From contig CALUPJ010000065.1 of the NCBI GenBank assembly GCA_944322555.1, positions 1-44,483 of the forward strand: 44,483 nucleotides of DNA, read 5' to 3'. Source of the DNA: Candidatus Gastranaerophilales bacterium. GTDB lineage: Bacteria > Cyanobacteriota > Vampirovibrionia > Gastranaerophilales > Gastranaerophilaceae. Shown one piece after another: positions 9,046 to 35,581 of this stretch. The position numbers and the translations under genes were made by a program. Under the pieces are notes generated by a model, which saw only the letters and a list, made by a program, of their open reading frames with translations, was not told where the DNA came from and did not search any database. Each line of letters opens with the position of its first letter. The first letter of the stretch is position 1.

Positions 9046-9100
9046 AAACAAGGGGAGTATTGTTTTATTTACAAGCCTGAATTATAACGAGGGAATGCCA

Positions 9101-9697
9101 GTGAATATTTTCAGAATCGTATTGTCGTTTTTGTTATGTTTTATATCTGTTTCGGCTTCTTTTGCCGAATGTGCAAGTATGGATTTTAATATAAATTTAC
9201 CGGGTTATGTCAGGATAGAGCCTGTTACAAGTCCGGTTTTGACAGCAAATATTACGGATAGGACAGGAAATCTGTATGCGCCGATTTCCAGTAAATTTAA
9301 AATTATTTCAAATTCAAAAGAGACAAAAACTCTTTACTTGAAAGCTAATACCGTGACTGACGGAGGATATGAAGATGCAATGTTTGAGCAAGGCGGAAGG
9401 GTTTATATTGCCTTTGCAAATCTGGCTAAAATACCTAAAACCCAATCTCTTGCTAATTGCAAGCTTGGAGGTCCGTCAAAAGACAGTCCCGGAGTAGTTG
9501 CCTACCCGATTACTTCTATTGTCGGAGCAGAGACAAAATTTATTCCGTATAAAAATAAATACGAAGTCTATGCAGGTAACGGCACGACTTATGTTACGGT
9601 CAATGTAGGTTCAAACGTATTAAGCAGTTCTTTTGCCTCTAATGATCCAAAGGGTTTTTATCAAGCGGTTCTGTCTTTGACGGAAGCTGATATCTAA
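9101..9697 (+). CDS. exported pilin-like subunit, paralogue of the subunits at 31349 and 31968
   Basis: The product is 198 residues from GTG 9101, which has GAGGG seven bases upstream; the ATG at 9095 is only one base from that site. A signal peptide ends near SFAEC. The mature part aligns by eye with two subunits of the chaperone-usher operon at 31349-32576. All three share TLYLKA-like and VYIAFANL-like strands, an (I/V)AYP(I/V) motif, and a C-terminal G(V/F)Y(E/Q)A strand. That fits a secreted beta-sandwich of the SCPU/archaic-pilin type. It lies 34 bases upstream of bamA in the same direction, so it may use or monitor outer-membrane assembly. Confidence 0.65.
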   Translation: MNIFRIVLSFLLCFISVSASFAECASMDFNINLPGYVRIEPVTSPVLTANITDRTGNLYAPISSKFKIISNSKETKTLYLKANTVTDGGYEDAMFEQGGRVYIAFANLAKIPKTQSLANCKLGGPSKDSPGVVAYPITSIVGAETKFIPYKNKYEVYAGNGTTYVTVNVGSNVLSSSFASNDPKGFYQAVLSLTEADI

Positions 9698-9731: not shown

Positions 9732-11981
9732 ATGTTTAATAAAATAAAGAGGAGAGTTTTTTTAACGTCGCTTATGGCGTCATTTGTTTTGGCGTTTATT
9801 TTGGTGTGTACTTCCGTTAATGCGGAGGCTGATTTCTCCTGCCTTGAACTTGCCCGTACAAAACCTGTAAAGTTGATTAATCCCTTGTATTTGGATAGTA
9901 CGAAACTGGAAAAACCCGTTATAAAACTGACAACCCCATATAAAGGCGGTGAATTTGATGAATCCGATTATTTCTCCTCTGAGATTCAGGATTCTCCGCC
10001 TCCTCCCGTCGATTTACCCGCAAAACAAAATGCTCCGCCTGAAATTAATCAGGATATTCCGCCTGCCGGGAACGTTATTGATAATGTGCAGGAATTTAAT
10101 GTGGTGCCTGTAAATGATTTCTTTGCGCCGCCCGGGTCTCCTCAAAAATTTGAAGAGACATATTCTGCAGGAATAAATTCGGTAGAAGAAGGGCTGAATT
10201 TTGAAGAAGCTCCGAATCTGGAAGGCAAAATAATAAGCAATGTCCGTATTGAAGGATTGAAACTTATAAAGTCCGATGTTGTTCAATCAAATATCAAAAC
10301 CGGTTCTTTATTTAATGAAGAATTAATTCAGCAGGATTTGCAAAGAATTTATTCAACAGGATTTTTTACGGACAGAATGAATGTGGAGCCGATATTGAAA
10401 GATGACGATACGGTGGAACTTGTATTTAAGCTTCAGGAGAATGTCCCCGTAACGGATGTTTCGGTTCTCGGTAATACTGTAATTTCATCAATGGAACTAA
10501 TGCCGTTTATTATACCTTTGAAAGGTTTGCCGCAAAACATTTCGCATATAAACGATGCCATTGAAAAAATGACAGGCTATTATCACAACAAAGGATATAT
10601 TCTTGCTTCCGTAAGCTCGGTTGATGATGACGAGAACGGTAATCTTTCGTTCAGTATTAATGAAGGTGTAATTGACAAAATAGTTATTGAAGGCAATGAG
10701 AAAACAAAGGATTACGTAATTGAGCGTAATATTATGACTCAGCCGGGTACTGTTTATAACGAAAATTATCTTAAAGAAGATTTATCCCGAATTTATTCTA
10801 CAAAAATATTTAAAGAAGTGAACAGAGAAATTTTTCCGAGTGACACGGCGGACGGAGCATATAACGTAAAAGTGGTTGTTAAAGAGGACAGCCCGAACAG
10901 TCTTGCACTCGGCGGCGGTATTGATAATGCGCTTGGTGCTTTTGGCTCGGTAAGCTACAGTGAAAACAATTTCCTCGGAAGAGGGCAAAGACTTACATTA
11001 TCCGGTATATTAGGTTCGGGTATTCTGTTGAGCGATGCTTCCATAAAAAACAGAATGAATTATCAGCTGGAATTAAGCTTTTTTGAACCGTATTTTTTGA
11101 ACGCGGATAATTCTTTAATGAGTAAGCTTTATTATCGTGATATGGGGAGCTGGCAGGTTCCTCTGGCAATAGAAAGACGCTTTGGTATTAATGCGGGTGT
11201 AGAACATAAGGTTAAAGGATATGACAATTTAACGACAAACTTTACTGCAGGTATTGAGCATATAAGTTTGAGTGAAGGAGATTTTAATAAAATTTCCCAG
11301 CTTTACGCATTGCGAAATCTTGATATTTCACAGAGAGCAAAACAGCTTACAGGCGGAACATTTATAAATCTTGCACCGGGTGTAAGATATTCTACACTTG
11401 ATGCCGATGAAAATCCGAGGAGCGGTATTATTGCGGATGCCAAATTTATTGAGGCTTTTGGTATAAGTGATATTAATCATACAAACGGAAGGCTGGCCGG
11501 CGGTGTTACCAAATATTTCCCTGTGAGAAAGAAATCATCCTTCTCTTTGACAGCGAGGGGCGGTATTAAGGTGCATGGCAACGATATGCCGGAAGTTATG
11601 GCATTTCGTTTGGGCGGCCCATATTCAGTAAGAGGTTTCAGAATGAGCGGAGTCGGCTCGGGGGATGCTTTCTTAATGGGCTCTGCCGAGCTTGCTACAC
11701 CTTTACCCTTTGTAGACAGGCTAAAATGGGATTTTTTGCAAAAAATACGTTTGACGTTCTTTGTTGACGCGGGCAAAATTTTCGATCCGACGGTTTCCAG
11801 TGTCTTATATGACAGACCGTTGGGTGCTATTTCCGCAGGTATCGGACTCAGGGTGTTTATCCCGGGGGTAGGTCCGATATCTGTTGATTATGGTATTCCG
11901 CTCACAAATCCCGGAGATTACGGCTCGAAAAACGGTTACTTTACTTTTGGTACGGGAGGTATGAATTATTATGGATATTAA
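9732..11981 (+). CDS. bamA: outer membrane assembly protein BamA (cyanobacterial-type Omp85)
   Basis: This 749-residue protein inserts beta-barrel proteins into the outer membrane. It has a signal peptide (1-31) and a proline-rich linker (about 85-140, with PPPPVDLP and PPEINQDIPP). Three POTRA domains lie near 167-238, 239-312 and 313-386, each closing with a VFKLQE/VVVKED-like strand. A 16-strand-type barrel follows from about 390, with the VRGF motif in the loop-6 region (about 634). The three-POTRA layout is that of cyanobacterial Omp85 and Toc75, not the five-POTRA proteobacterial form. GGGAGG sits very close (2-3 bases) to the ATG. The last 11 bases overlap skp. Confidence 0.93.
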   Translation: MFNKIKRRVFLTSLMASFVLAFILVCTSVNAEADFSCLELARTKPVKLINPLYLDSTKLEKPVIKLTTPYKGGEFDESDYFSSEIQDSPPPPVDLPAKQNAPPEINQDIPPAGNVIDNVQEFNVVPVNDFFAPPGSPQKFEETYSAGINSVEEGLNFEEAPNLEGKIISNVRIEGLKLIKSDVVQSNIKTGSLFNEELIQQDLQRIYSTGFFTDRMNVEPILKDDDTVELVFKLQENVPVTDVSVLGNTVISSMELMPFIIPLKGLPQNISHINDAIEKMTGYYHNKGYILASVSSVDDDENGNLSFSINEGVIDKIVIEGNEKTKDYVIERNIMTQPGTVYNENYLKEDLSRIYSTKIFKEVNREIFPSDTADGAYNVKVVVKEDSPNSLALGGGIDNALGAFGSVSYSENNFLGRGQRLTLSGILGSGILLSDASIKNRMNYQLELSFFEPYFLNADNSLMSKLYYRDMGSWQVPLAIERRFGINAGVEHKVKGYDNLTTNFTAGIEHISLSEGDFNKISQLYALRNLDISQRAKQLTGGTFINLAPGVRYSTLDADENPRSGIIADAKFIEAFGISDINHTNGRLAGGVTKYFPVRKKSSFSLTARGGIKVHGNDMPEVMAFRLGGPYSVRGFRMSGVGSGDAFLMGSAELATPLPFVDRLKWDFLQKIRLTFFVDAGKIFDPTVSSVLYDRPLGAISAGIGLRVFIPGVGPISVDYGIPLTNPGDYGSKNGYFTFGTGGMNYYGY

Positions 11982-12426
11982 AAAATTGCTTACGGTTTTG
12001 GCATTATCTGCTGTGTTACCCTGTTTTGCAGGGGGCGTCGGCTATATTAATTATGAAAAAGTTGTGCAAAATTATCAGTTTGCCAAAAATTCGCTTAGAG
12101 AAATTGAAACTAAAAGTAATGAAATTCAACAATATTTGATGATGAAGGAAAAAGAATTCAATCAGATTGAATCCGCGGTGCAAAAAAAGAAGTTTGAAGA
12201 AACCGTGCGTGCGGAATTACAGACAAAGGAGCGTGCATTTAACGCTTTTCGTGATAAAAAAGAGGAAGAAGTTTACACAAGAATTCATGCTGTAACGGAA
12301 AAAATTAGGCTAGAGAAGGGTTTGGACGCAATTATTGATGCAAGAAGCGTTTTTTCGGGCGGAGTTGATATAACCGATACTTTAATCCAGCAGCTTAATA
12401 ATCCGCAGTCTGTGCGCCGGCAATAA
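11971..12426 (+). CDS. skp: OmpH/Skp family periplasmic chaperone
   Basis: This 151-residue protein has a signal peptide ending near CFAGG. The mature start VGYINYEKVVQNYQFA is the typical OmpH opening. A long charged helical hairpin (about 45-115) forms the tentacle arms, and LDAIIDARSVFSGGVDITD is the conserved closing strand. Skp holds unfolded outer-membrane proteins for BamA, and the start codon lies inside the bamA 3' end (11-base overlap), so the two are translationally coupled. No lpx or fab genes follow, unlike in many Gram-negative genomes. Confidence 0.92.
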   Translation: MDIKKLLTVLALSAVLPCFAGGVGYINYEKVVQNYQFAKNSLREIETKSNEIQQYLMMKEKEFNQIESAVQKKKFEETVRAELQTKERAFNAFRDKKEEEVYTRIHAVTEKIRLEKGLDAIIDARSVFSGGVDITDTLIQQLNNPQSVRRQ

Positions 12427-28613: not shown

Positions 28614-31349
28614 TTAATAGCATTTATAAATCAGGTCCTGATTTTGAAACTCCGCAAATTCTTTATAAATATAGGGAATATCAATTGTAATTTCACCTTT
28701 TTCGTTGTCGGGTGTCAGGTTATAATCATTGATAAAACTTTTGTCAAGAGCAATTTTGTATCTGCCGGGAGAAATCCCCGAAAAATAATAATTTCCCAAA
28801 TTATCGACCGTAGAATATGCAATTTCGCAGCCTTCTTCATCAAATAAACTGACAATAAAATCATTAACTGGCATTTTCCTTTCAAAATCATCCTCAATTA
28901 GCAGTTTGCCGGAGATATTACCGACGGTACTTTTGAGCGGGAATTCGACACGGGTTGTTTTCCCAGATTCTACAAAAATAGCTTGTTTCAAATCTGTTTC
29001 GGGTGACAGATTTGCATGAAGATTATCACCGTCAAGTTTTACTTCATGATATCCTTTTTCCACATTTTGAAGCGGACAAAATCCGCTTCTTTTGGTTTTT
29101 ATGGAATGGCTTTTCCAGGAAACGGTTATAGGAACATTGGCTACTTTTATATCATCTTTATCAAAGATTTTATTTTTGTTTTTGTCTATATAGGCCGCTA
29201 TTTCAACAAAACCTTCATTAGGTGAAATTGTACCTATTGATTGCAGTCCGTTATCAGAAAAAGCAAATGTATCGTTAAATGTAAAATTAATTGAGTGGCG
29301 TGCATTGGACGGTATGTACATGTTGTTGAACATATAACCCATGGCGGTATTATATTGGTAATTAAGACTTATAATCATTCCCGTTTTAGTACGGTAACCC
29401 AGAGCTATGTTGTATGTAAAGCCTCCGTCAAGTCCCTGATACTTATATCCGGTACCGAGTGCAAGAAGTATTCTTTTAAACTCCGGAAATTTATAGTTCA
29501 CTTTTACCATATTGTAATCATTTTTTGCACTGCCGGTTTCATAATTGACCGTTTCGTGTCCGAGAGATAAAACTCCTTTATTTTGGGAAAGTCTCAGATT
29601 TGAGTTAACATATATTGTATTATATGTACTTTTATAACCGTTTGAATAGCTTGAAGAGGAATTGTATTCGGTATTATAAGCATTACCCATGTATCCGGCT
29701 TCCAGAGAAAGTTTTGAATTAATGTTTTTAGACGCGTTCAAGTTGTAATAATAGTTAAGATTATGTCCCGTGCTGTTTTCTCCGTATCTAAGATTACCGT
29801 TAAATCTTAGTTTTGCGAAATCGAAAAGATTGGCTCCCGCATTTAAGTGAGCTTCGTCGAAAGTTGTTATTCCTCCGGCATATCTTTGGTCAAGGTTAGA
29901 AAGGTAACGCGTATAGCGTATATTTGTATTAAATTTTTCTCTTGAATAGTTATATACGGTTTCGGCACCGAGCCTGTCACAAATAAACCCCGAGTCGGAG
30001 CCTGCAACGTAATAATCGGGAGACTGCTGATAGAGTCTCATTTTAAGAGTCGAGTTTTTGTAATCAAAAATATTTTCGAGAGACAATGAGTATCCGGGGG
30101 AATAGTTTGCGGTATTATAGTTGAAATCACGCATCAGAGAGACTCCGGCGAGTGCATTTAATTTATAAAACTCGTTTTTATAAAGGCTGAGTGTATTAAT
30201 AAAACTCACACCTTCCATTGTATTAGGGTTTCGGTAAACTCCGGAGGAGAGGATTGAGTAATCAAAATTTGTAAAAATTGCATTGTTATTTTTTTGAATA
30301 ATTTTGTCGTAAATGATTTTTGTATCAAGACTCATTTTGTCTGTAAGTCCGTATTCTCTGCGTCCTCCTGCAACTAATTTTTTAGACGTCATTTGATAAA
30401 TATATCCGTTCGAGCTGAAAAGACGGTTGTTAAATCCAGAAATTCCGGCAAAAATACGCTTTCTGCTTTCTCCTTTTTTAAGCTCATATTTATTTTCTCT
30501 CTTTTCGTATTCGTTATAGTCGGAAAGCTGTGCTCCTATAAGCATTGTTCCTATAGAATTGTAATTGTCTCTGAATCCTGATACCTGACCGAGTTCGTAA
30601 AAATATTTATCACGCAATTTGTTTTTGTATGTAAAACTTAAGCCTCCAAAGGAGAAAAACTGTTGTGTATAGTTATTTGTATTAAAATTCAGTGCGTAAT
30701 CTCCACCGTATAATTTCCCTTTGAGACTCATTCTTGTATTGTTATTAAACATTACATTGTTTTGGATTGAATTCAGATAAACCTGTTTCGTGGAATCATT
30801 CATCATAGAATTATTGAGTTCCAGAGTATCAAAAGAGATTTTGCCTTTTTCTTTCGGCTGTAGAATATTTTTATCTTCCTTTTTTTTCTCTGAAATATTT
30901 TCAGATTTTTGATTTATATATTTGTTAAAAATATTTACGCATAAGGAACTTGTATCAATTGCTACAATTGAATTAAAAATGTTTTCTGCCGCATCTTTGT
31001 CAATAAAAAATTCATCGGCTTCAATAATTCCATCTTTTTGAAATTTTACACTTTCGGTTATTTTTTTATTATTTGAAAATACTCCTTTTTTGTTAACAAT
31101 TATATTTTGGTTTTCAAAATTTAAAAAATCGGCTTCTTTTTTTGAATGATTTACATTTACGGGTAAATTAAAGATTTTAGCAATCTGTTTAACCGGAATA
31201 TATATATTGTCGGAAACGGTTAGGATTTCGATATCATACTGCTCGTTTTCATTAAGACAGAGATTTGTTATTGTAGTTTGTTCAGTACGGGCAAATGCGG
31301 TGCAAAAACTGTTGATAATTAAAAATACCAATATGATAAAAATTCGCAT
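28614..31349 (-). CDS. usher-like outer-membrane beta-barrel protein
   Basis: This 911-residue protein has a signal peptide (1-20). Residues 30-120 form a small domain (YDIEILTVSDNIYIPVKQIAKIF) like the N-terminal part of archaic or CS1-type ushers. Residues about 180-700 are a long run of amphipathic strands with Tyr, Asn and Gly, typical of a large barrel. The C-terminus carries two Ig-like/SdrD-B-like domains (VANVPITVSWKSHSIKTKR, then VEFPLKST and GISPGRYKIALDKS). By context it secretes and assembles the two subunits. Its ATG overlaps the stop of the preceding subunit (ATGA). Family membership is inferred from architecture, not from a diagnostic motif. Confidence 0.65.
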   Translation of the reverse strand: MRIFIILVFLIINSFCTAFARTEQTTITNLCLNENEQYDIEILTVSDNIYIPVKQIAKIFNLPVNVNHSKKEADFLNFENQNIIVNKKGVFSNNKKITESVKFQKDGIIEADEFFIDKDAAENIFNSIVAIDTSSLCVNIFNKYINQKSENISEKKKEDKNILQPKEKGKISFDTLELNNSMMNDSTKQVYLNSIQNNVMFNNNTRMSLKGKLYGGDYALNFNTNNYTQQFFSFGGLSFTYKNKLRDKYFYELGQVSGFRDNYNSIGTMLIGAQLSDYNEYEKRENKYELKKGESRKRIFAGISGFNNRLFSSNGYIYQMTSKKLVAGGRREYGLTDKMSLDTKIIYDKIIQKNNNAIFTNFDYSILSSGVYRNPNTMEGVSFINTLSLYKNEFYKLNALAGVSLMRDFNYNTANYSPGYSLSLENIFDYKNSTLKMRLYQQSPDYYVAGSDSGFICDRLGAETVYNYSREKFNTNIRYTRYLSNLDQRYAGGITTFDEAHLNAGANLFDFAKLRFNGNLRYGENSTGHNLNYYYNLNASKNINSKLSLEAGYMGNAYNTEYNSSSSYSNGYKSTYNTIYVNSNLRLSQNKGVLSLGHETVNYETGSAKNDYNMVKVNYKFPEFKRILLALGTGYKYQGLDGGFTYNIALGYRTKTGMIISLNYQYNTAMGYMFNNMYIPSNARHSINFTFNDTFAFSDNGLQSIGTISPNEGFVEIAAYIDKNKNKIFDKDDIKVANVPITVSWKSHSIKTKRSGFCPLQNVEKGYHEVKLDGDNLHANLSPETDLKQAIFVESGKTTRVEFPLKSTVGNISGKLLIEDDFERKMPVNDFIVSLFDEEGCEIAYSTVDNLGNYYFSGISPGRYKIALDKSFINDYNLTPDNEKGEITIDIPYIYKEFAEFQNQDLIYKCY

Positions 31350-31957
31350 CAGGGTTTCCTGTAAATATTCAGAGTGACTGCGGCTTCATAAACACCTGCG
31401 TTGTCTTCGCTTACGGAATATGTATTTCTGAGCGGAGTATTGCCGATGGTCTGAATTATGTTCATATCCTGTTCCCCTCCGCTTAAAATCTGACAACAGA
31501 GTCCGCCGTTATAATTTATTGGTTTAATATCAAACGGGGAGTTGTTTATTACGGGATATGCAATAATATTTGGATTTGCATCCGGAGTTCCGGATTCTAT
31601 ATCAGCAGCAGCGGTAGTATCGGGCAAATGTTCTTTATTTCCAAGCATCAGGTATAAATTGTCATTGTTCAAAACATAAGCATTTTTTATTCCGCCGAGA
31701 GTTTCTAAACTGCTTGAGAGTATAAAATCATAGGTATTGTCATCGCCGTTCGTCTTGATGTTAAATATGGCTTCTAAGCCCGATTGATATCCATTTTGCG
31801 GGTTGATTCCGCTGTTGTTTTTAGATGAAGTCATGGTTTTTACGACAGCGGATGAAGGCACTATGAGTGTTAAGCGGCTTTCCATTACGGCAGTACCGAA
31901 ACAAATCGGTACTTGCAGTAATGTTAAGAAAAAAGTAAAGATAAGTTTATTTTTCAT
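31349..31957 (-). CDS. pilin-like subunit 2 of the chaperone-usher-like operon
   Basis: The product is 202 residues from the ATG at 31957; upstream in-frame codons read back into the preceding gene and lack a ribosome site. A signal peptide precedes ICFGTAV. The mature part shares AADIESG, IIAYPVI and the C-terminal DNAGVYEAAVTLNI with the 31968 protein, so the two are paralogues. A Cys-Cys pair (CCQIL) is unique to this copy. Likely a structural or tip subunit with a beta-sandwich fold. Confidence 0.7.
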   Translation of the reverse strand: MKNKLIFTFFLTLLQVPICFGTAVMESRLTLIVPSSAVVKTMTSSKNNSGINPQNGYQSGLEAIFNIKTNGDDNTYDFILSSSLETLGGIKNAYVLNNDNLYLMLGNKEHLPDTTAAADIESGTPDANPNIIAYPVINNSPFDIKPINYNGGLCCQILSGGEQDMNIIQTIGNTPLRNTYSVSEDNAGVYEAAVTLNIYRKP

Positions 31958-31967
31958 CTGGAATAAC

Positions 31968-32576
31968 CTATGTTGTTGTATCCGTAAGTGTAACGTGGGC
32001 TTCATAAACGCCTGCATTGTCATCAAAAGAATATGTTGTCGAATCTACGGATGATGAAATAGTTGTTGTTGCAGTGGTTATACCGGGGCTGACCTTAAAT
32101 TCATATTGATTTTTACCGTCGTTATATTGCGGTTCAACTGTTGTTGCTCCCGTAATTTCAACGCCGGAAACAGGATATGCGATTGCATTTGCGTTATTTG
32201 ACGGAATAGCCGTTCCCGTTCTTATATCTGCCAGAGCGGAGCTTGTCGGTTTTTTTGTTGTGTTGGTTAAAATAACATATACTGTCCCGGCTTTTTTAAA
32301 GAAGGCTTTTTCCGGTCCGTTTTCGGTATCGGCTTTAGCTGTCAAATATAAATCTACATTATCATTTGCCCTTATTGTAAATACCGAGGAAAATCCCGTA
32401 TCAAGATTACCTGTTGCAGGATCGATTGTTTTTGTCTGAATATCTGTTTCTGCTTTGATATCGACAAAAGGTGCAAGAGTTGCACGCAAAATCTGCGTGT
32501 CGAAAGTTTCTGCATGTGCGCAGATACAGGAAGCGCACAGAACCAGCATTGAAGTGAAAAATTTTGTTTTGTTCAT
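31968..32576 (-). CDS. pilin-like subunit 1 of the chaperone-usher-like operon
   Basis: This 202-residue protein has AAGGAGA before the ATG. A signal peptide ends near CAHAE. The mature protein is Thr-rich with LYLTAKADT, VYVILTNTTKKP, NAIAYPVSG and DNAGVYEAHVTLTDTT, the features shared with the 31349 and 9101 proteins. It has the strand pattern expected of an SCPU/CS1-like fibre subunit. It lies 9 bases after the chaperone gene. Probably the major subunit, but this is inference. Confidence 0.7.
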   Translation of the reverse strand: MNKTKFFTSMLVLCASCICAHAETFDTQILRATLAPFVDIKAETDIQTKTIDPATGNLDTGFSSVFTIRANDNVDLYLTAKADTENGPEKAFFKKAGTVYVILTNTTKKPTSSALADIRTGTAIPSNNANAIAYPVSGVEITGATTVEPQYNDGKNQYEFKVSPGITTATTTISSSVDSTTYSFDDNAGVYEAHVTLTDTTT

Positions 32577-32585
32577 GGTTTCTCC

Positions 32586-33413
32586 TTAAATAGAATTAGT
32601 AATATTAAACGGCACCTCTTTGATGAGGTTTTTATTTTCTCCTTTTTCGTTTTTATACGTTAGTATGACTTTTAAAATGTAATTTCCCGTTTCAAGATTT
32701 TCAGGGAGTTTTCCGGTTTCTTCAAAAATTCCGTCAGCCCGTATTGTATTGCTGTTCATATTAAATTCTCGTATAAGGGTTTTATCCTTTATAATTTGGG
32801 CTTTACCTCGATATCGGACTTTGCTGTTTCCCTGTGAACTTAGTTTCATCTTATATACAAGATTTCCGTTTTCTTTATCAACTGTTAAATCGTTAAATGT
32901 ACCTGTTTTGACAAACCGCCCTTTATCTATATAAATCGGAATACCGAGTCTTGTTTTTACAACAAGTCTTGTATTTACGTTTTTATTTTTGTTGGGGAGT
33001 ATGATTTCTTTCGCCGCAACATCTTCGATGAACATAACCATTCTTGATTCTCCGTCAGGCAGGCTTTTTAGGTCTGTAAAAGTGACTCTGACAAGCTGCG
33101 GGATTCCGTTTTTGAGCGTAAATTCATTAGGAACAAATCTGGCATGTGGAATTAAATTGTCCTGATTTGCAGAAACAGGTTCTGAGTGCATTTTGCCGCG
33201 GTCGGTTATTGTGAAGTATTCGGGATAGAGTTTATATCTTATAGTTTCATTCTTATCTGCCTGAATACTGAATGATGTTGTAAGGTAATTTCCGTTTCCT
33301 TTATTTGCGTTTAACTCTATCAGTGTGGGGGATACTTTAACGGCAGCAAATGACTGAAGGACTGTAATGAGCGTAAAATATAGGAATAAAGCTATTTTAA
33401 GCAGGCTTTTCAT
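32586..33413 (-). CDS. PapD-like periplasmic fimbrial chaperone
   Basis: This 275-residue protein has a signal peptide (1-23). Its N-terminal domain, starting AVKVSPTLIELNANKGN and with RFVPNEFTLKNGIPQLVRVTF and LPDGESRMVMFIED, matches the G1-strand and subunit-binding region of pilus chaperones. The second Ig-like domain runs from about 165. It would hold subunits in the periplasm until the usher receives them. The start is one base after the preceding stop, within a single packed transcript. Confidence 0.85.
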   Translation of the reverse strand: MKSLLKIALFLYFTLITVLQSFAAVKVSPTLIELNANKGNGNYLTTSFSIQADKNETIRYKLYPEYFTITDRGKMHSEPVSANQDNLIPHARFVPNEFTLKNGIPQLVRVTFTDLKSLPDGESRMVMFIEDVAAKEIILPNKNKNVNTRLVVKTRLGIPIYIDKGRFVKTGTFNDLTVDKENGNLVYKMKLSSQGNSKVRYRGKAQIIKDKTLIREFNMNSNTIRADGIFEETGKLPENLETGNYILKVILTYKNEKGENKNLIKEVPFNITNSI

Positions 33414-33414
33414 G

Positions 33415-34320
33415 TTATTTTCTCTCCATTATGTAAGTCAAAGGGTATTGTCGTATTCCTTCTTTTATATATTTATCCGTATCGGAATTATTGAACGAAT
33501 ATTCGATAATAATGCTTGTCGGCACGTTATTTCCGCTTTCAAATCCGTCAAGAGTTGAAGAACCTTCGGCTAAGAGATAGCGTTTGTTCGGAAAAATGCG
33601 TGTAAGATTTTGTTCGCAATTTGTTATATTGCCTGTATAACTTTTTATTAAAAATGAGTATTCGCCTTCAAGGTTTGTTATATTTGAGGTGTCAAGCCAA
33701 AGGCTCCAGTTCGTATTGGAGTATAAATCAAGTTTTATTTCTTTTTTATTTTTTATTGAGATTTTTTTGTTAAAAACATCCTCTTCACTCAGGATTATTA
33801 AAGGTTCACCGCTGAAAGACGATATGTTTTGTTTTTCGTATATAATAAAACTGAATAAGAAATCACATTCGTATTGCTGAATTAAACTTGTTCTGTTTAC
33901 AAATTTTAGCGGTATTGTATATGTTCCTGCGGGAAGCTCTCCGATATTTTCGAGACGTAATGTGATGTTTTTTTGTGCTGTTCTTGTGAAATCGATATCC
34001 CCGAGGCTGTCAATATAAAACAGCTGCATACCGATATTGCTTAGCTGGTATGATTCTCCATCGCAAATCAGATATAAATTATTTACGGGGATTTTAATTC
34101 CGGGGTTTTCATTATTGGTAATATATGATTCCATAGCACTTGCCAAAAGCCTTGAAATACCAATCTGCGGATAAGTAAGATTTATATTTGCCGTAATTGA
34201 TGAGGATGTAATTACAGGCAGCCCGACCTGTTCTGCCCGCATAAAAATATCAGCTTTTACCCCGGGTTGTACGAGTAAAATAAATAATAAAGCCAGAATA
34301 TAACTGATTATTTTTTTCAT
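33415..34320 (-). CDS. exported protein, first gene of the chaperone-usher-like operon; possible adhesin or tip subunit
   Basis: This 301-residue protein has GAGGA upstream of the ATG. A signal peptide ends near PGVKAD. Two beta-rich parts are seen: residues 30-160 with LPAGTYTIPLKFVN, and 165-300 ending SIIIEYSFNNSDTDKY. There is no catalytic motif and no membrane anchor. As the first gene before the chaperone it may be the tip adhesin, but it lacks the AYP and VYEA motifs of the subunits. Confidence 0.6.
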   Translation of the reverse strand: MKKIISYILALLFILLVQPGVKADIFMRAEQVGLPVITSSSITANINLTYPQIGISRLLASAMESYITNNENPGIKIPVNNLYLICDGESYQLSNIGMQLFYIDSLGDIDFTRTAQKNITLRLENIGELPAGTYTIPLKFVNRTSLIQQYECDFLFSFIIYEKQNISSFSGEPLIILSEEDVFNKKISIKNKKEIKLDLYSNTNWSLWLDTSNITNLEGEYSFLIKSYTGNITNCEQNLTRIFPNKRYLLAEGSSTLDGFESGNNVPTSIIIEYSFNNSDTDKYIKEGIRQYPLTYIMERK

Positions 34321-34460: not shown

Positions 34461-34940
34461 ATGAGAAAAAAAATCTTTTTAATAATATCAGGCATATTTT
34501 TCCCCGCATATGCATTTGCGGGAAATCAGGCATCCCAGACGCTGCAGAGTACGGTGCCTGAGGTTTTGCATATAGATAAAATAATTGTGGAAAATGTGGA
34601 ATATGAAAAAGATGAAGAGCTTAAAAATGTTCAGATAAGACAAACCGAACTTATTGACGAGCATTGCTGCTGCCTTTCTCTGACCCCTTTTTCCGTCAGG
34701 ATTACGACAAATTTATCCGAGCCGATACAGGTTAGTGCAAAAATGGAAAGCTGCTGTAGCACCTGCGGCAGATATCCTTTAGATAATGAAGATTTAATGG
34801 TTACACCGTCATCGTATACTATTAATAATCCGCATGACAAAATAGAAACGGATTTTTTTACACCAAAAGTACATGCACATGATGATACTGTTTGTACAAC
34901 ATACAGAGCGCATTTAACGGTTACACTCGGGCGGGTATAG
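34461..34940 (+). CDS. exported Cys-rich protein, possibly a divergent subunit
   Basis: This 159-residue protein has a signal peptide ending near AYAFAG. The mature protein starts NQASQTLQSTVPEVLHIDK and contains CCC (about 67-69) and CCSTC (about 96-100). It ends TTYRAHLTVTLG, similar to the last strand of fibre subunits. Divergently transcribed from the chaperone-usher operon across 140 bases. Its six or more Cys suggest disulfides or metal binding. Confidence 0.6.
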   Translation: MRKKIFLIISGIFFPAYAFAGNQASQTLQSTVPEVLHIDKIIVENVEYEKDEELKNVQIRQTELIDEHCCCLSLTPFSVRITTNLSEPIQVSAKMESCCSTCGRYPLDNEDLMVTPSSYTINNPHDKIETDFFTPKVHAHDDTVCTTYRAHLTVTLGRV

Positions 34941-34942
34941 TT

Positions 34943-35581
34943 ATGATAAAAAAAATAATTGCACTGTTTATTCTTATAATGTCGGTAGTTCCCGTATCAT
35001 ACGCAAGAGTCGGGCAGCCCTCGTTTGTTTTTGCTATTAATGAAAACCCCGCAGCAGACTCTTCATCCCCTGCGGGAAAAGACAACGGGCTTTCGGGCGG
35101 TGCCGTTACCGCTATAACATTAGGTTCAATTGGCGGTGCGGCACTTTTAGGTTTGGGGGGCTGGCTTTATAAAAGAAAAACGGCACAATGTCTTACTGCA
35201 GGATGTATAAGAGGTTCGGCAGAACCGCTTGTTCCATTTTGTATTGAACAAAATCCGAATGCGGAATTTTATGCACGGATAAATAACAACTATCCTTATC
35301 TGAAAAAGGCTTTAAGCCTGAATGAAATTCATTATTGCCCGCATTCCAAATATCTTTTGGTGTACGATACTTCTATTGAAAAAAGAGTTTTTGATTCCGT
35401 TAAATTCAATCTGCCTGCAGGAGTAAAATCAATAAAAATAACACATGTAACGGATGCGTTTAAGAACGGGGAGTTTACGGCAGAGCTTTTTTATACGAAA
35501 AATTTAAATCCGCGGATAATCAAGCAGAGCCTGATATTCTTGCCGGGATTAAAAATGAAACGGATATTGCCGGAGTCATAA
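34943..35581 (+). CDS. exported membrane-anchored protein of unknown function
   Basis: The product is 212 residues from the ATG at 34943, two bases after the preceding stop. A signal peptide (1-22) precedes a Ser/Pro/Asn-rich segment. A second hydrophobic segment of about 19 residues (AITLGSIGGAALLGLGGWL, around 55-73) is followed by KRK. The rest is a soluble alpha/beta domain with several Cys. Function unknown; it is coupled with the Cys-rich gene and divergent from the pilus-like operon. Confidence 0.6.
   Translation: MIKKIIALFILIMSVVPVSYARVGQPSFVFAINENPAADSSSPAGKDNGLSGGAVTAITLGSIGGAALLGLGGWLYKRKTAQCLTAGCIRGSAEPLVPFCIEQNPNAEFYARINNNYPYLKKALSLNEIHYCPHSKYLLVYDTSIEKRVFDSVKFNLPAGVKSIKITHVTDAFKNGEFTAELFYTKNLNPRIIKQSLIFLPGLKMKRILPES

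Follow-up and report, generated by a model that had tools for sequence, protein, structure and literature searches.

Organization of the operon and its neighbors

The window (the whole 44,483-nucleotide stretch of DNA that was analyzed) is contig C65 of a draft genome of ~1.8 Mb (G000) whose host, Candidatus Gastranaerophilales, is a non-photosynthetic relative of the cyanobacteria. Relatives of this genome are other Candidatus Gastranaerophilales assemblies, often derived from animal guts, and every genome used was metagenome-assembled. A compact operon of five genes is located on the minus strand between positions 28614 and 34320. The first gene (33415 to 34320), conserved as gene 1 of the operon, encodes an exported protein of 301 aa, probably with two domains and with a putative tip or adhesin role. 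It is followed by a PapD-like periplasmic chaperone of 275 aa (32586 to 33413), pilin subunit A (202 aa; 31968 to 32576), the paralogous pilin subunit B (202 aa; 31349 to 31957) and an usher of 911 aa (28614 to 31349). The junctions are tight, with spacers of 1 nt, ~9 nt and ~10 nt and then a TGATG overlap ahead of the usher. The start of subunit B is most likely the ATG at 31957, a TTG at 32026 given by the open reading frame tool being an unlikely start. All five packed reading frames were found where the initial annotation had placed them. Promoter-like sites were present at no more than the chance level.

An identical five-gene order was detected in ~20 related genomes and in most of the complete related loci. 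The same genome contains a second operon with this gene order on a different contig (L031, G000:C129). This recurrence, together with the second copy, excludes chance or mis-assembly as the origin of the operon.

Two further genes diverge from the operon on the plus strand. The first, div (34461 to 34940), encodes a minor subunit-like protein of 159 aa that shares the N-terminal extension motif of the subunits; the match between the div profile and the subunits was confined to the signal peptide and this extension (E = 1.6e-7). The second, div2 (34892 to 35581), encodes a protein that is putatively exported and has a single transmembrane-like segment. Both genes adjoin the window version of the operon in every locus for which there is sequence at this place; the five genes described initially are, hence, an operon within a larger unit. 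Compared with its closest relative, L077, the div2 gene of the window carries a one-base frameshift near 35490 that alters the C terminus and is due either to an assembly error or to real decay.

Identity of the usher, chaperone and subunits

Chaperones of chaperone-usher (CU) pathways complete the incomplete Ig folds of pilus subunits, and ushers accept the chaperone-subunit complexes and polymerize the subunits by donor-strand exchange. In FimD and PapC, the lumen of the usher is blocked by a plug until activation, and models of usher action assume that such a plug closes off the barrel and is displaced on activation. None of the usher, chaperone or pilin models of Pfam matched a protein of the window, and NCBIfam likewise yielded nothing. 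For the usher, PF00577 matched neither this protein nor anything else in its genome, so that the usher family search suggested in the initial annotation returned no match. Across a phylum sample, PF00577 was detected in 18 of 339 genomes, none of which was from the class of the window. Searches of PDB sequences with profiles of the usher, chaperone, subunits and tip protein were also without matches. The link to known ushers, therefore, comes from structure and profile comparison.

The initial annotation had inferred an usher from indirect features of the 911-residue protein, and this assignment was borne out by structure prediction. An AF2 model was built on an alignment of 37 relatives and had a pLDDT of 80.8 and a pTM of only 0.56. 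In a Foldseek search of the PDB with this model, the 13 best matches were all to FimD or PapC (E = 1.9e-21 to 4.4e-11), and the best non-usher beta-barrel was FecA; the barrel is, hence, not of a plain TonB, LptD or porin type, the best such match having an E value of 1.4e-6 versus 1.9e-21 for FimD. A profile of plugged relatives was aligned by hhalign with seven K-12 ushers over 685 columns (probability, 96.7; E = 3.2e-10), with the plugs in register. Against FimD as a single sequence, just the plug and its flanks were aligned (E = 0.017), while the single sequence of EcpC gave no signal and those of EcpB, FimC and EcpA gave nothing informative. The usher HMM of the window family also detected PF00577 ushers of photosynthetic cyanobacteria.

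The usher (28614 to 31349, minus strand) consists of a signal peptide, a periplasmic N-terminal domain, the barrel and C-terminal prealbumin- or SdrD_B-like domains, with the plug absent. Both terminal domains that flank the barrel of a usher are thus present but are of unusual types. The N-terminal domain (residues 38 to 134; 30948 to 31238) weakly resembles PF07833, the copper amine oxidase N-terminal or stalk domain, with an E value of 0.027 in the window usher and matches in 9 of 16 family members (best, 8.2e-5). By analogy with FimD, this domain would be expected to dock the chaperone-subunit complex. The C-terminal domains (residues 709 to 911; 28617 to 29225) occupy the place of CTD1 and CTD2 in FimD and include the only part of the usher recognized by Pfam, an SdrD_B match (PF17210) at residues 826 to 888 (E = 1.3e-8) that was found in all 16 family members. 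These domains had been described as Ig-like; their presence was correct, while the label is amended to SdrD_B or prealbumin-like.

For the chaperone, comparison of the family profile with eight K-12 chaperones by hhalign indicated similarity to pilus chaperones (E = 8.2e-6). PF00345 matched 6 of 17 members of the chaperone family weakly (best, 0.004) and was without a match in the window protein. In a photosynthetic cyanobacterium, the chaperone HMM detected a PF00345 chaperone encoded beside a PF00577 usher that was itself matched by the usher HMM. The AF2 model of subunit A (pLDDT, 89.8) has the CU-pilin fold: its best PDB match by Foldseek was CfaB of CFA/I (E = 1.9e-4), followed by the pilin domain of PapG, with FimA and MyfA weaker. 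This fold was examined for subunit A, the N-terminal extension of which has no strand in the model. Neither outcome named in the initial annotation as refuting it, a plain TonB- or LptD-type barrel or subunits without the pilus-type fold, was thus obtained. Subunit B has an alternating N-terminal extension and a C-terminal AGxYxA motif, and its paralogy with subunit A was also detected by HMM; the tip-like protein is without the extension motif of the subunits. The matches of usher, subunit and chaperone support the proposal that the window operon encodes a CU pathway, albeit a divergent one and with a usher that has no plug.

An orphan CU-pilin-like gene of 200 aa is present elsewhere in the window (9095 to 9697, plus strand), directly upstream of a BamA/Omp85 gene (9732 to 11981) and an OmpH/Skp gene (11971 to 12426). 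Relatives of this orphan gene occur in plugged operons, divergent beside the tip gene (e.g., L043, L089 and L105).

The window operon resembles the FimD and PapC systems (PF00577) in the N-terminal domain, barrel and C-terminal domains of its usher, in the chaperone and subunit partners and in the best fold matches, but differs from them in having no plug between strands 6 and 7, SdrD_B-type C-terminal domains and an N-terminal domain weakly like PF07833. With CFA/I (CfaABCE; alternative chaperone-usher pathway, class 5 fimbriae) it shares a single chaperone, a tip-like protein and a subunit A similar to the major pilin CfaB; unlike CFA/I, it has two subunits, two extra divergent genes and a plugless usher, and there is no direct sequence match. 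The CFA/I usher, CfaC, has been modeled with a displaceable plug (PMC7531860). The initial annotation regarded the operon as lying outside the Proteobacteria, which is true but less new than was claimed, as photosynthetic cyanobacteria have CU genes of the CccS/CccP/Slr0019 type, with SCPU (PF05229) subunits and Pfam-recognizable ushers (PMC4390875). These systems are from the same phylum, and their PF00577 ushers and a PF00345 chaperone are reached by profiles of the window family, but those of their ushers that were examined carry a plug. In open-access papers, the scope of our literature search, there was no report of CU pili for Gastranaerophilales or Vampirovibrionia and none of a natural plugless usher.

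Absence of the plug

In PapC, beta6 and beta7 flank the inserted plug (PMC4356140). Alignments, model strands and pLDDT place the corresponding site of the window usher at residues 277 to 294 (30468 to 30521, minus strand), where the model has a linker between strand 6 (residues 269 to 276) and strand 7 (residues 295 to 305) with a low-confidence core at residues 283 to 287. The usher of the second operon, L031, is 37% identical, has 1,014 aa and is plugged, and the L031 operon, unlike that of the window, does not adjoin div or div2. When these two paralogues were aligned, a single large gap opened within the barrel, following residue 284 of the window usher, and the extra segment of the L031 protein aligned with the plug of FimD and its flanks. 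In PF00577 ushers of photosynthetic cyanobacteria, too, the plug HMM matched at the equivalent position (E = 2e-6 to 2e-5). A departure from the classical plug-and-CTD layout had been noted in the initial annotation and was upheld; its real content, loss of a plug that the relatives keep, had gone unseen.

The length of the plug site was determined for 68 ushers. A stretch of 82 to 111 residues, comprising the plug plus linkers, was present in 44 ushers, while 23 had 16 to 21 residues and one (L046) had 42. The 23 plugless ushers are those of the window and 22 related loci, from independent assemblies and with 63 to 96% identity to the window, and the gap is always in-frame and at the same place. 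In a usher tree made without the plug columns, the plugless rows grouped in a single clade (SH-aLRT, 100) that lies within the plugged rows, indicative of a single loss of the plug. The economical reading of this tree is that the plug was lost once in the window clade and that L046 represents a separate reduction. Family f3 ushers at L046 (4953 to 7871) and L047 (6126 to 9044) both have ~42 residues at the plug site, an apparently independent reduction.

Values of dN/dS were similar for plugless and plugged ushers. The dN/dS of the plugless usher was 0.05 to 0.08, with several pairs near dS saturation; the closest pair, window and L077, was not saturated and had a value of 0.052. Judged by these ratios, the plugless usher gene is under strong purifying selection. 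Broken related operons do exist (L084, L109, L111, L167, L108 and L117), and the gap could have been attributed to an assembly error or to recent decay of a single gene; this explanation is excluded by the occurrence of the same in-frame gap in all 23 loci and by the dN/dS near 0.05.

Of 14 genomes examined, 13 contain no usher of the family other than the plugless one. A plug-domain profile recovered the plugged ushers of control genomes at 2.6e-26 or better but had no match with E < 0.05 in any of these 13, indicating that there is no recognizable plug in trans. Absence of an HMM match to the plug is weak evidence at the distance of the photosynthetic cyanobacteria; in the window clade, absence rests on alignment. 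Alignment revealed no compensating insertion in the barrel of the plugless usher. The div and div2 genes are already present beside related plugged operons (L079, L082, L083, L164 to L166 and others), indicating that these neighbors did not arrive with the loss of the plug. In the plugless clade only, div is cysteine-rich and has a conserved cysteine pattern.

Usher-like proteins of 850 to 920 aa without a recognizable plug, mostly encoded near chaperone-like genes, were observed in two other families of the class (f8 and f12; L153 to L157, L171 and L172). These were left out of the plugless count as their matches are mainly in the C-terminal domains and their identity as ushers is unproven; they are possibly an older plugless lineage.

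Probable fiber assembly by the plugless usher and occurrence of the family

Our main reading, to which we assign a probability of about 0.8, is that the window encodes a highly divergent CU pilus operon whose plugless usher still builds fibers, with a pore that is not gated by a plug. Fiber formation, donor-strand exchange and the manner of sealing are inferred for this operon. Subunits exported by Sec would be received in the periplasm by the chaperone, which would supply the missing strand. The outer-membrane barrel would then take the chaperone-subunit complexes and move the fiber to the outside; the tip protein would emerge first, and subunits A and B would be added behind it by donor-strand exchange. 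In the window clade, a single deletion between strands 6 and 7 of the barrel removed the plug, which closes the lumen in FimD, PapC and the paralogues of this usher, and plug displacement cannot be the activation step of such a usher. The pore is most likely either ungated or sealed in another manner, possibly by the terminal domains, tip or engaged fiber. Since a pore that never closes would be expected to carry a cost, a seal that has escaped notice is likely. Somewhat favored is the wider proposal that a natural clade of ushers in gut Gastranaerophilales exports and assembles fibers without a plug, that the plug is dispensable for fiber assembly and that the resting pore is sealed by the terminal domains, tip or fiber.

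A natural plugless usher is surprising because engineered removal of the plug from PapC produces a large open pore, with openings of ~3 nS per monomer and a very large conductance (PMC10418385). The same observation means that a plugless barrel could serve as a pore, and the protein might have given up fiber building to become an open channel for export or a porin-like pore, its neighbors being retained for another reason. We consider this improbable: almost every complete plugless locus has an intact chaperone, tip-like protein and pair of subunits in unchanged order, the usher retains the N-terminal and C-terminal domains required for handling subunits, and selection on the plugless usher is as strong as on plugged ushers. 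Closure of the lumen by other means, either a separate plug protein such as a divergent neighbor or a newly grown lumenal loop, is a less remote but still unlikely explanation. Gain of the div cysteine pattern coincides with loss of the plug, yet this is a single event; div and div2 adjoin plugged ushers as well and are, hence, not specific replacements, and neither the search of 13 genomes for a free-standing plug nor the alignment of the barrel provided a candidate. The fiber-building usher is also preferred over placement of the operon within the archaic or alternative CU clades already known, as one of their ordinary members. The similarity of subunit A to CfaB of the alternative CFA/I system agrees with such an assignment, and a two-domain first protein would suit a CfaE-like tip, but the failure of the Pfam and NCBIfam models to match the window proteins, the SdrD_B-like C-terminal domains and the missing plug render it doubtful.

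The plugless clade, with the rest of the usher kept under strong selection, constitutes a natural experiment on the need for gating and on what else could seal the ~24-strand pore. The family profile matched 49 of 240 genomes across the class, some of these matches being confined to the C-terminal domains. CU pili appear to be common in gut Gastranaerophilales yet invisible to current family models, so that the adhesive surface biology of these bacteria in animal guts has escaped notice. In photosynthetic cyanobacteria, loci L189 to L196 contain SdrD_B-ended usher-like proteins and chaperones of the window family that were missed by PF00577 and PF00345 in those scanned; these proteins look plugged by eye but were mostly missed by the plug HMM. 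A locus from Lysobacterales (L122) was rejected as a relative because only SdrD repeats were in common.

Decayed remnants of usher operons were observed at six loci (L108, L112, L117, L121, L029 and L033), some consisting of just div2 and a C-terminal fragment of the usher, indicative of frequent loss of these operons. Two loci from assemblies titled 'uncultured Acinetobacter sp.' (L105 and L121) contain operon sequence of the Gastranaerophilales type, and the names of these metagenome-assembled genomes are probably wrong.
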